A stretch of DNA of 39,903 bases from Verrucomicrobiota bacterium. Lineage in GTDB: Bacteria; Verrucomicrobiota; Verrucomicrobiia; Verrucomicrobiales; Akkermansiaceae. This document shows positions 13,965 through 39,903 of this stretch, one piece after another (the first letter of the stretch is position 1; every line of letters starts with the position of its first letter). A program made the translations under genes and the position numbers. The stretch is from positions 1 to 39,903 of the forward strand of contig WBXD01000005.1 of the NCBI GenBank assembly GCA_008932935.1, read 5' to 3'. The notes beneath the pieces were generated by a model, which saw nothing but the letters and a program-made list of their open reading frames with translations, did not search any database and was not told the origin of the DNA.

Positions 13965-14039
13965 GGCGCGAGGATAACCCTAGACCGAAAAATAGAAACC
14001 ACCGACTTCGGCGTTCGAGTTGGCTGGCCAGCGGGACAC

Positions 14040-14134
14040 GACACAAGACACAAGACACAAGACACAAGACACAAGACACAAGACACAAGACACAAGACAC
14101 AAGACACAAGACACAAGACACAAGACACAAGACA
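14040..14134. repeat. Heptamer tandem array (GACACAA)13 plus partial unit
   Basis: 13 perfect 7-bp units 14040-14130 plus GACA; followed by inverted-sense words tcttgccgtctggcgtcttgcgtct (14159-14183). Confidence 0.98.
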
Positions 14135-15232: not shown

Positions 15233-15363
15233 GAGGCTGCGCCTCAGACCCAACAAGACCCAACAAGACCCAAGACCCAAGACCCAAGACCCAAGATAGG
15301 ATAAGAGAGCGCAGCGCTTGTACATCTGCTCTTCTCTTGGGTCTTGCCGTCTTGAGTTTTTTT
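15233..15363 (+). terminator. AAGACCC-repeat hairpin followed by T7 (terminator-like) downstream of sua5
   Basis: AAGACCCAAGA (15286-15296) pairs perfectly with TCTTGGGTCTT (15335-15345); T-run 15357-15363. Confidence 0.6.
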
Positions 15364-35910: not shown

Positions 35911-36369
35911 ATGAGTGCGGACATCGCCACCAACCGGAAAGCCGGCCGCGATTTCCACATCTTGGAAAAATACGAGGCCGGCCTTGAGCTCAAGGGCACG
36001 GAGGTGAAATCTATCCGTGCCGGCAAGGTCAATGTATCCGACGCCTTTGCCCGCGTTGAAAACAACCAGGTGTTCCTCTATGGCTGCGACATTCAGCCGT
36101 GGGAAACTGCCAGCGCGTGGTTCAACCACCCGGCCAAACGACCGCGCCGACTGCTGCTCAACAAGCGCGAAATCCTCAAGCTAGCCACCGCCACCACCAT
36201 CAAGGGCTGCACCTTGCCGCTGCTGCGTATGTATTGGAAAAACCGCCGCGTCAAAGTGGAACTCGGCGTCGGCAAGGGCAAAACCCACTCAGATCAACGC
36301 CACGACTTGAAAAATCAGGTCGAACTGCGCGAGGCCCAACGCGAAATGGCCCGCTTCAACCAGCGCTAA
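35911..36369 (+). CDS. smpB: SsrA-binding protein
   Basis: 'NRKAGRDFHILEKYEAGLELKGTEVKSIRAGKVNVSDAFARVENNQVFLYGCDIQPW', 'LGVGKGKTHSDQRHDLKNQVELREAQREMARF'. Confidence 0.96.
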   Translation: MSADIATNRKAGRDFHILEKYEAGLELKGTEVKSIRAGKVNVSDAFARVENNQVFLYGCDIQPWETASAWFNHPAKRPRRLLLNKREILKLATATTIKGCTLPLLRMYWKNRRVKVELGVGKGKTHSDQRHDLKNQVELREAQREMARFNQR

Positions 36370-36375
36370 GCACGC

Positions 36376-36920
36376 GCCGGGCCAATGGCGGCGAGACGCC
36401 ATCCCTCCTTGAGTGCGGTGGCTCGCCACCGCCCGGCCCAGCCAGCTTGCTGGCGCGTGGCGGCATCAAGGAGCGGGGGCAGCTTGCCCCCTAGCCCATG
36501 GGACGCGCAAGAGCAAGCCGCCATGCGGCTACCCTTGCTCTATCCATGGCCCATGGCGGTTGGCAACCGCCGCTCCTTGAGTGCGGTGGCTCGCCACCGC
36601 CTGGCCAAGCCAGCTTGCTGGCGCGTGGCGGCATCAAGGAGCGGGGGCAGCTTGCCCCCTGGCCCATGAGATGCGTAAGAGCAAGCCGCCATGCGACTGC
36701 CCTTACTCTATCCATGGCCCATGGCGGTTGGCAACCGCCACTCCTTGAGTGCGGTGACTCGCCACCGCCCGGCCACAAGCCAGCTTGCTGGCGCGTGGCG
36801 GCATCAAGGAGCGGGGGCAGCTTGCCCCCCCTAGCCCATGAGACGCGTAAGAGCAAGCCGCCATGCGGCTACCCTTGCTCTATCCATGGCCCATGGCGGC
36901 GGGACGCCACCCCTCCTTGA
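36376..36920. repeat. Three tandem ~168-bp multi-hairpin units plus flanking partial units
   Basis: CTCCTTGA landmark at 36405, 36573, 36741, 36913 (offsets 168, 168, 172). Each unit contains GCGGTGGC-TC-GCCACCGC, GCCAGC-TT-GCTGGC, GGGGGCA-GCT-TGCCCCC, AGAGCAAGCCGCCATGCGGCTACCCTTGCTCT and GGCGGTTGGCAACCGCC-type stems. Confidence 0.95.
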
Positions 36921-36927
36921 GACTGAC

Positions 36928-38301
36928 TCACGACACCTGCGGCGGGGCGAAGCCATCGCGGTAGGCGCGCCGGACGAGGGTGGCGGAAGCTTCCGGGTGA
37001 TTGGTGAAGCTCAGACTGGCTTTGTCCCAGCGGAGTTCCTGGCCGGGAAAGCGGCCGGCCTTCACGGCGAGTTGGACCGCCTCGGTGATGCGCAGCGCGT
37101 CGCGGAACGGGCTGCGCAATTCAGTCGCTTTGCCGAGGCAATTGTCCACCCAGGCATGCCAGTGGTTGAGCGGCCCAAACTCCGGCAAACCCGGCATTTT
37201 CAACCCGGCAGTGAGTTTGCCCTCGCGCCAAATCTCGAGCCTGCCCGGCGCCGTAAGGGTGAGTACTCCACCTTCACAAACGACCACCGTCATGTTGTCG
37301 TCAGCAAACTGTCCGGCAGGCAGGCCCAGCGCGGCACGTGAAACAGCCTGGGCGGAATCGCTGTAATAGATGGGAAATTGTTTGCGCACAAACTGCGGGG
37401 AATCCACCGCATAGGTGATGGTGCTGCGGCACGGATGGGGGTGAAAGTCGGGCTTGGGTGACTGCTGGCAGTGGTTTAAAACGGCAATGGGTGAGCGCAA
37501 TTCATCATAGGCATAGAACAGGACATCGAGCACATGGCAGCCCCAATCGCCCAGCCCGTTGCTGCCGTAATTCCACCACGAGCGCCACACCACCGGAGCC
37601 ATCCCGGCGCGGTACGGCACCTCGGCGCAAGGGCCGAGCCACAGGTTCCAATCGAGGCCGGGCGATGGCGGCGTGGGCTCGGCGATGACCCGGTCGAGGT
37701 TAAAATAAGCGCGGTCATTGGGCGAGCCGATCCAGATGTGGGCCTCCAGCGCCTTGCCCAACATCCCATGGCGCAGAATTTCCACCGCCGCCCGCCGCCC
37801 GGCCAAGGCCATGCGCTGGTTGCCGAGTTGGGTGACTAGGGCGGGCCGCGCGGCCAACGCCCTTTCCATCATGGCGAGTTCTTCCAACTGATGGACCAGG
37901 GGTTTCTGGCCATAGACGTGCTTGCCACACGCCAGCGCGCTGAGCATGATCGGGGCATGGCTGTGATCAGGCGTAGACACGATCACCGCATCGAATTGGT
38001 CGCCTTTGTCGGCAAACGCCTCCCGGTAATCCCGGCACTGGAATGCCTGCGGGTGATCCTTGGCGGCTTGGGCCAAGGCCCCAGCATCCACGTCGCACAA
38101 CCCCGTAATGTCCACCAGCGGATGGCTCGCCACCTGCCGGCGATCCTCGCCGCCGATAGTGCCCACCACGCCAATGCACAGCACCCGCAGCCGGGTGGCG
38201 GGTGCCACCGCCGGCGCTTGCGCCCGTACCCCGGCGGATAGAGCGAGGCCACCGACACCCGTGGTCCACAGGAAACGGCGGCGATTGATTGAAGGAGGCA
38301 T
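36928..38301 (-). CDS. Gfo/Idh/MocA family oxidoreductase, exported (Tat-like signal)
   Basis: 'SINRRRFLWTTGVGGLALSAGVRAQA', 'DAVIVSTPDHSHAPIMLSALACGKHVYGQKPLVHQLEE', 'GLGDWGCHVLDVLFYA'. Start among 38331/38313/38301 uncertain. Confidence 0.93.
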   Translation of the reverse strand: MPPSINRRRFLWTTGVGGLALSAGVRAQAPAVAPATRLRVLCIGVVGTIGGEDRRQVASHPLVDITGLCDVDAGALAQAAKDHPQAFQCRDYREAFADKGDQFDAVIVSTPDHSHAPIMLSALACGKHVYGQKPLVHQLEELAMMERALAARPALVTQLGNQRMALAGRRAAVEILRHGMLGKALEAHIWIGSPNDRAYFNLDRVIAEPTPPSPGLDWNLWLGPCAEVPYRAGMAPVVWRSWWNYGSNGLGDWGCHVLDVLFYAYDELRSPIAVLNHCQQSPKPDFHPHPCRSTITYAVDSPQFVRKQFPIYYSDSAQAVSRAALGLPAGQFADDNMTVVVCEGGVLTLTAPGRLEIWREGKLTAGLKMPGLPEFGPLNHWHAWVDNCLGKATELRSPFRDALRITEAVQLAVKAGRFPGQELRWDKASLSFTNHPEASATLVRRAYRDGFAPPQVS

Positions 38302-39757: not shown

Positions 39758-39779
39758 GACTCAAGACTGGAAGACGCAA

Positions 39780-39884
39780 GACACAAGACACAAGACACAA
39801 GACACAAGACACAAGACACAAGACACAAGACACAAGACACAAGACACAAGACACAAGACACAAGACACAAGACACAAGACACAA
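39780..39884. repeat. Heptamer tandem array (GACACAA)15
   Basis: 15 perfect 7-bp units, preceded by GACGCAA and followed by GACGAAC. Confidence 0.98.
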
Positions 39885-39903
39885 GACGAACATTGAACGC
39901 CGA

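Follow-up and report, generated by a model that had tools for sequence, protein, structure and literature searches.

The gap between smpB and an oxidoreductase gene in the window (the whole 39,903-nt stretch of DNA that was analysed) is filled almost entirely by near-identical, hairpin-rich units, raising the question of whether they represent a mobile or REP/BIME-like structured repeat or a processed 3'UTR or ncRNA, the two readings offered by an earlier note made from the sequence alone. We therefore asked what the units are made of, where else they occur, and which transposases share their palindromes.

Composition of the array

The flanking genes are convergent, SmpB (PF01668) having its stop at 36369 and a GFO/IDH/MocA oxidoreductase, on the minus strand, at 36928. 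Between them the array spans 36386-36921 and consists of three tandem units of 168, 168 and 172 bp on the plus strand (36405..36572, 36573..36740 and 36741..36912). Start positions of CTCCTTGA at 36405, 36573, 36741 and 36913 give these same offsets, and TRF returned a period of 168, 2.9 copies, 93% matches and a score of 877; coordinates, spacing and structure all agreed with the initial description. The array is not a CRISPR, since whole 168-bp units are near-identical and carry no spacers, and the ORFs of 94-140 aa that can be read across it in several frames look spurious, in keeping with its description as noncoding. Elsewhere in the window, near-perfect 7-bp tandem repeats (ACAAGAC, CAAGACC, AAGACAC) of up to ~17 copies lie at 14036-14134, 15264-15296 and 39771-39887.

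Each unit joins palindromes from two REP families. Module B of unit 1 (36405..36473, plus strand; further copies at 36573-36641 and 36741-36811) comprises two hairpins inside a CTCCTTGA/TCAAGGAG stem and is homologous to the left half of a GGAGTGCGG REPIN. Its first hairpin, H1 (GCGGTGGC-TC-GCCACCGC, 36415..36432, plus strand), is the REP hairpin of RAYT family 1 and has the tag GAGT directly 5' of the stem, and its second, H2 (GCCAGC-TT-GCTGGC, 36441..36454, plus strand), is common to GGAGTGCGG REPINs. When one unit was folded as single-stranded DNA, CTCCTTGA and TCAAGGAG paired to enclose H1 and H2, so that the hairpins and outer stem named beforehand were recovered. The remainder, element A (TCAAGGAG[H3-H4-H5]CTCCTTGA), lies at 36466..36580 on the plus strand in its first copy and at 36634-36748 and 36804-36920 in the others. 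It contains, on the same strand, a left tagged hairpin H3 (GGGGGCA-GCT-TGCCCCC, 36475..36491), a nested internal hairpin H4 that folds (36510..36541), and a right tagged hairpin H5 (GGCGGTT-GGC-AACCGCC, 36555..36571), which is the amplified variant.

The array edges had been described as alternative half-units. The hairpins in question are present on the plus strand, but they are not arbitrary, representing instead the original end of element A: TGGCGGCGAGACGCCA (36386..36401) is what remains of a TCAAGGAG element at its right end and shows the ancestral form of H5, TGGCGGCGGGACGCCA (36894..36909) keeps the right end of the final element A in its ancestral form, and a terminal CTCCTTGAG tag (36913..36921, plus strand) closes the array. 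Hairpins of the TGGCGGCGAGACGCCA type also terminate stand-alone elements in the same genome (L026 and L030) and in sister species, and one occurs at the orthologous site of the sister species G048 (L220). Along the array TCAAGGAG and CTCCTTGA alternate, giving the alternating palindromes in tandem modules by which BIMEs and REPINs are recognised.

Two palindrome families and their RAYTs

RAYTs are HuH/Y1 tyrosine transposases that work on hairpins in single-stranded DNA, and for each of the two palindrome families we found a RAYT family flanked by matching tagged palindromes. About 41 GGAGTGCGG REPs were counted in the bacterium's own genome (G000, a 2.24-Mb draft that is 71% complete), compared with 0 in reversed-pattern controls, as expected of a many-copy intergenic palindrome of 20-40 bp. 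Stand-alone GGAGTGCGG REPINs on contigs C66 and C78 (L144 and L147) have GGAGTGCGG and its hairpin followed by GCCAGC..GCTGGC and, ~80 bp on, an inverted GGAGTGCGG hairpin; H1-H2 is the left half of such a REPIN.

The genome search proposed in the earlier note did yield a REP-associated transposase. A single copy of RAYT family 1, a 161-aa HuH/Y1 protein encoded at G000:C19:23134-23616, lies between GGAGTGCGG REPs of the same kind as H1-H2. The remark that no recombinase is adjacent to the array was thus true locally, but RAYTs are encoded elsewhere in the genome. The family is characterised by the motifs NHYH, WHN, YVHxN[AP] and WPxxP; NCBIfam REP_Tyr_transpos (NF047646) matched 10/10 aligned members, whose alignment (A2) keeps H48, H50, Y110 and N114, the HxH, Tyr and Asn of the HuH/Y1 active-site motifs, invariant. 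The G000 protein itself scored 64.5 bits with NF047646, below the cut-off of 80, and 21.8 with Pfam Y1_Tnp against a cut-off of 23, and its ORF lacks in frame the conserved N-terminal WPxxP segment that is present in 76/80 relatives. Possible reasons are a defective gene copy and an assembly error at this point.

Relatives of RAYT-1 numbered 330 in public genomes, in hosts labelled Verrucomicrobiota, Acidobacteria and Planctomycetes. Among the best 80 of these 330, which were fetched, 76 had enough flank, and GGA[CG]T-tagged hairpins lay on both sides (≤450 bp) in 54/76 loci versus 7/134 windows a kilobase off, while control tags were found in 0-1/76. A RAYT between its own inverted palindromes was therefore observed for family 1 both in the bacterium's genome and in these 54 relatives. 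RAYT-1 was not detected in G048, G072 or G019, which do carry GGAGTGCGG or similar REPs, and across the genus the presence of RAYT-1 showed no simple correlation with REP count.

Element A is a separate element of ~117 bp, TCAAGGAG...CTCCTTGA, with perfect 8-9-bp inverted repeats at its ends, and it stands alone in G000 (L026, L030) as well as in G019, G072, G075, G061 and G048. Its palindromes match those around RAYT family 2 (LPHWQ, NHVH), which is distinct from family 1. Hairpins of the TCAAGGAG type flank this RAYT in G019 and G006, a hairpin near-identical to H3 flanks it in G072, and CAAGGAG- or GGAG-tagged GTGGGC..GCCCAC hairpins lie alongside it in the 11 closest loci. The REP of the G072 RAYT-2 (AGTGGGCGTCCCGCCCAC) differs from the end of element A (AGTGGGCATCTTGCCCAC) in the loop region alone. 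Such a gene with cognate palindromes was found in G019, G072, G061, G006 and others but not in the bacterium's own genome: no TCAAGGAG-flanked RAYT-2 was found in the 71%-complete draft, and RAYT-2 was not found in G075 although element A is present there.

The only close RAYT-2 of the own genome lies in frame inside ispG (GcpE) within an 891-aa ORF (L046:454-3126; G000:C6:13780-14361) and has other palindromes of its own, GGTGGCTGCGGCGTCCCGCCGCAG. A comparable arrangement was seen in leuS of at least 12 species: a RAYT-2 (Y1_Tnp) and its flanking REPs sit in frame in the part that encodes the editing domain, following ..GTGAIMAVPAHDERDFEFA... These loci of sister species (L338-L348, L350, L352, L353, L358, L362 and L364; for example L339:37-3480, 1148 aa) were checked with Pfam in three cases and otherwise judged by ORF length and flanks; the REPs inside leuS translate as ..SRSVGVPPT.. 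and ..GGTPTLLE.., and our literature search found no earlier description of a RAYT inside leuS. A larger inverted-repeat element, whose ends are GACGGGCNTCTTGCCCAATNCNGTTCAATTAG, surrounds element A at L195, L227 and L230-L232 (G019, G072, G075).

Dispersal, hairpin change and turnover

The earlier note had reasoned that a unit found nowhere else would point to a one-off local duplication, and the outcome was the opposite. With the array as query, we obtained 49 matches in the own 2.24-Mb draft, ~9 of them at contig ends, and read 28 of the matched loci. The fused repeat is dispersed in 20 copies or more. Besides the array studied here there are ~15 tandem arrays, with units 167-172 bp long, that differ in copy number and end points, several starting precisely at GGAGTGCGGTGGCTCGCC. 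Short-read assembly breaks at such repeat arrays, and since several of them reach contig ends the true number must be higher. Exact TCAAGGAG..CTCCTTGA pairs occurred at 15 places, compared with 0 for the reversed-pattern control, and CAAGGAGCGGGGGCAGCTTGCCCCC, the H3 form of this species, gave 0 matches in an exact scan of a collection of contigs from named genomes. The array flanks are intergenic, the genes beside the copies are unrelated, and some copies are single half-units. Between convergent genes lay 8/13 copies with two callable neighbours (p ~0.006 if 25% is expected, a crude estimate made with a simple ORF caller). Units were 95.2% identical within arrays versus 89.4% between arrays (0/2000 label permutations), and the nearest neighbour came from the same array for 12/16 units, indicating local amplification or homogenisation after arrival.

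The tagged hairpins are maintained by compensatory change. One unit folded as single-stranded DNA better than 200/200 dinucleotide shuffles (z -3.6), compared with a z of -2.1 for the same unit as RNA, and the whole gap as RNA folded better than 100/100 shuffles (z -7.6). In the REP alignment that includes H1 (A3), three base pairs showed two-sided changes, amounting to 14 cells versus 4.3 after shuffling and ≤1 in slid controls. Element A gave 37 covarying cells versus 19.2 shuffled, the count of pairs with two-sided change not exceeding that of shuffles. H3 carries a compensatory G-C to U-A change, and H5 carries two adjacent ones relative to the ancestral GGCGGCG/CGCCACC form. H4 showed no compensatory change in the element A alignment, with 76-79% of its cells paired. 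The covariation that the earlier note had proposed to look for was thus present in H1, H3 and H5 but not in H4, and this variation on both sides of the end hairpins and not of the internal one fits recognition of ends by a transposase and not one conserved RNA fold. The changes are few in kind, and some may have arisen once and then been inherited by many copies.

Comparison with sister species revealed rapid turnover at this site. In G048, where the same two genes (78-81% aligned identity) surround the gap, the orthologous position (L220) is occupied by three REP modules together with an element A that has degraded, the 168-bp tandem being absent, which indicates that the content of the gap turns over quickly. 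For four further loci (L002, L007, L013 and L015), G048 likewise lacks the array next to the orthologous gene, a comparison made from one flank because gene order or contig ends barred clean two-flank empty sites. The same fused unit is repeated in tandem in G072 (L226) at a period of ~170, which indicates that the fusion predates the bacterium's own species.

Origin of the array and its relation to known systems

Taken together, the dispersed copies, the alternating tagged palindromes and the RAYT genes with matching palindromes in the own genome and in relatives favour the first reading of the earlier note, and the array is probably a hybrid BIME-like element with non-canonical guide tags, moved by RAYTs and then amplified in place. 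End-to-end fusion would have linked H1-H2, a REP module of GGAGTGCGG type, to H3-H4-H5, a REPIN of TCAAGGAG type, each palindrome family serving as the recognition and cleavage substrate of its own RAYT, and one RAYT may have been able to move the fused unit. The unit would then have spread into numerous intergenic gaps, most of them located at the 3' ends of genes, and after each arrival would have multiplied in tandem by slippage, unequal recombination or repeated cutting and joining by RAYT. The array can be explained without a host function, and it may, as a side effect, influence the two convergent transcripts at their 3' ends.

The second reading, a structured ncRNA or processed 3'UTR which could for instance terminate transcription in both directions or give smpB and the oxidoreductase gene an RNase-resistant 3' end, draws on the convergent gap, on the 8/13 callable copies in that setting (crude ORF calls) and on the strong RNA folding, but we consider it unlikely. 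The DNA fold stands out more than the RNA fold, the array has no terminator-like T-run, H4 lacks compensatory change, neighbouring genes are unrelated, some copies are single half-units, and the content of the gap is not conserved in G048. Nothing was seen to indicate an RNA product, and no Rfam match rose above threshold; the best, Acido-1 RNA, was rejected at 23.1 bits, far under the cut-off of 50. Purely local tandem duplication of GC-rich hairpin DNA by replication slippage, with a transposase never involved, certainly contributes, given the higher similarity of units within arrays, and remains part of the mechanism. As the whole story it is refuted by the dispersed copies, as slippage cannot place the unit at 20 or more unrelated loci or its stand-alone components in several species, and we regard a transposase-free origin as extremely unlikely.

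Two other routes of transposition also have to be weighed. It is very unlikely that element A is a MITE derived from a conventional DNA transposon, in which case TCAAGGAG would be the terminal inverted repeat and a target-site duplication would be present: the inverted ends of element A are perfect, but at 8-9 bp they fall short of the 15-30 bp expected and are always followed by a hairpin, as in REPs, and the same tagged hairpins flank HuH/Y1 genes. Copy L026 has GG or GAAGG on both sides, yet this apparent duplication falls within a pre-existing 15-bp repeat and is hence ambiguous. Movement by a Y1 insertion sequence of ~380 aa is the least likely of the explanations considered; this transposase is present in the own genome in at least 8 copies (L039, L042-L045, L048), but its borders, ACAGGGTGACAGATAAATAGTAGAGAATC, are unrelated to the array, and 0 of the loci read were flanked by TCAAGGAG tags. 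A single RAYT with GGGTCAGTCCC ends (L047) was likewise rejected as mover because these ends do not match the array. At L047 (G000:C67) and L238 (G048:C20) the RAYT-like gene has the ends GGGGTCAGTCCC..GGGACTGACCC, and a similar palindrome pair occurs alone in G048.

As a hybrid BIME-like element, the array has several known counterparts. One comparison is with the hybrid BIMEs of Stenotrophomonas maltophilia, which combine REPs of two RAYTs in regular tandem modules of alternating orientation, with palindromes kept by complementary changes (PMC2817692); here, the tags and host phylum are different, an additional internal hairpin is present in the partner that is a REPIN, and that partner's RAYT family lies in frame inside leuS of related species. 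The GI-GIII arrays of Pseudomonas fluorescens SBW25 similarly alternate two REP types at two fixed spacings (112 and 72 bp), with several arrays per genome, but have their own REP sequences and RAYTs, in contrast to the GGAGT and CAAGGAG tags and 168-172-bp unit described here (PMC3116915); the legend to Figure S11 of that paper mentions a 'clover' fold of REPINs, which is less stable. Escherichia coli BIME-2 is known for binding gyrase. Built of Y and Z2 palindromic units, it shares extragenic tandem arrays, alternate palindromes and a RAYT gene between the same palindromes, but is unrelated in sequence (PMC2817692).

Published guide tags at the hairpin foot are GTAG/GTGG and CGTC (PMC3733652, PMC6006769), and GGAGT and CAAGGAG belong to neither set. 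The superfamilies so defined, which include the REPs of O. terrae, resemble the present system in short tagged hairpins, dimers, clusters, several families per genome and a verrucomicrobial host, but GGA[CG]T and CAAGGAG tags fit neither (PMC3733652). By protein motifs, RAYT family 1 resembles TnpA_REP subclass 2.8, with its HuH motif NHYH, a proline-rich N-terminus and a W that precedes H or Y; that subclass is from Cyanobacteria with GT[AG]G tags, whereas family 1 occurs in other phyla with GGA[CG]T tags (PMC6006769, Table 1). The array thus behaves as a BIME while standing outside strict REP membership by guide tag, and, hybrid BIMEs being already known, it is better placed in an established class of bacterial repeats than among RNA genes. 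A third REP family, GTAG-tagged (GTAGCGGCGNGTCTATGACCGCCG), was seen at L015:1317-1340, L080, L197 and L246, with many related copies in G048.

We further propose, tentatively and with somewhat less than even confidence, that the fused unit is a composite replicating element needing two separate RAYT systems with tags beyond the published sets (GGA[CG]T and CAAGGAG), of which RAYT-2, lying in frame inside the essential leuS of sister species, would be shielded against loss as its palindromes disperse and give rise to hybrid arrays. If confirmed, the in-frame retention of a RAYT inside leuS would help to address why RAYTs persist, a question still under debate. A caution is that arrays of this kind interrupt draft assemblies and can yield spurious ORFs with LECGGSPPP-type translations. 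With these findings the RAYT/REP system also covers a large group of Verrucomicrobiota, Acidobacteriota and Planctomycetota whose guide tags lie beyond both described superfamilies, and the fusion of two RAYT/REP systems in one amplifying unit can serve as a natural experiment on the choice of hairpins by RAYTs and on the formation of BIME arrays.
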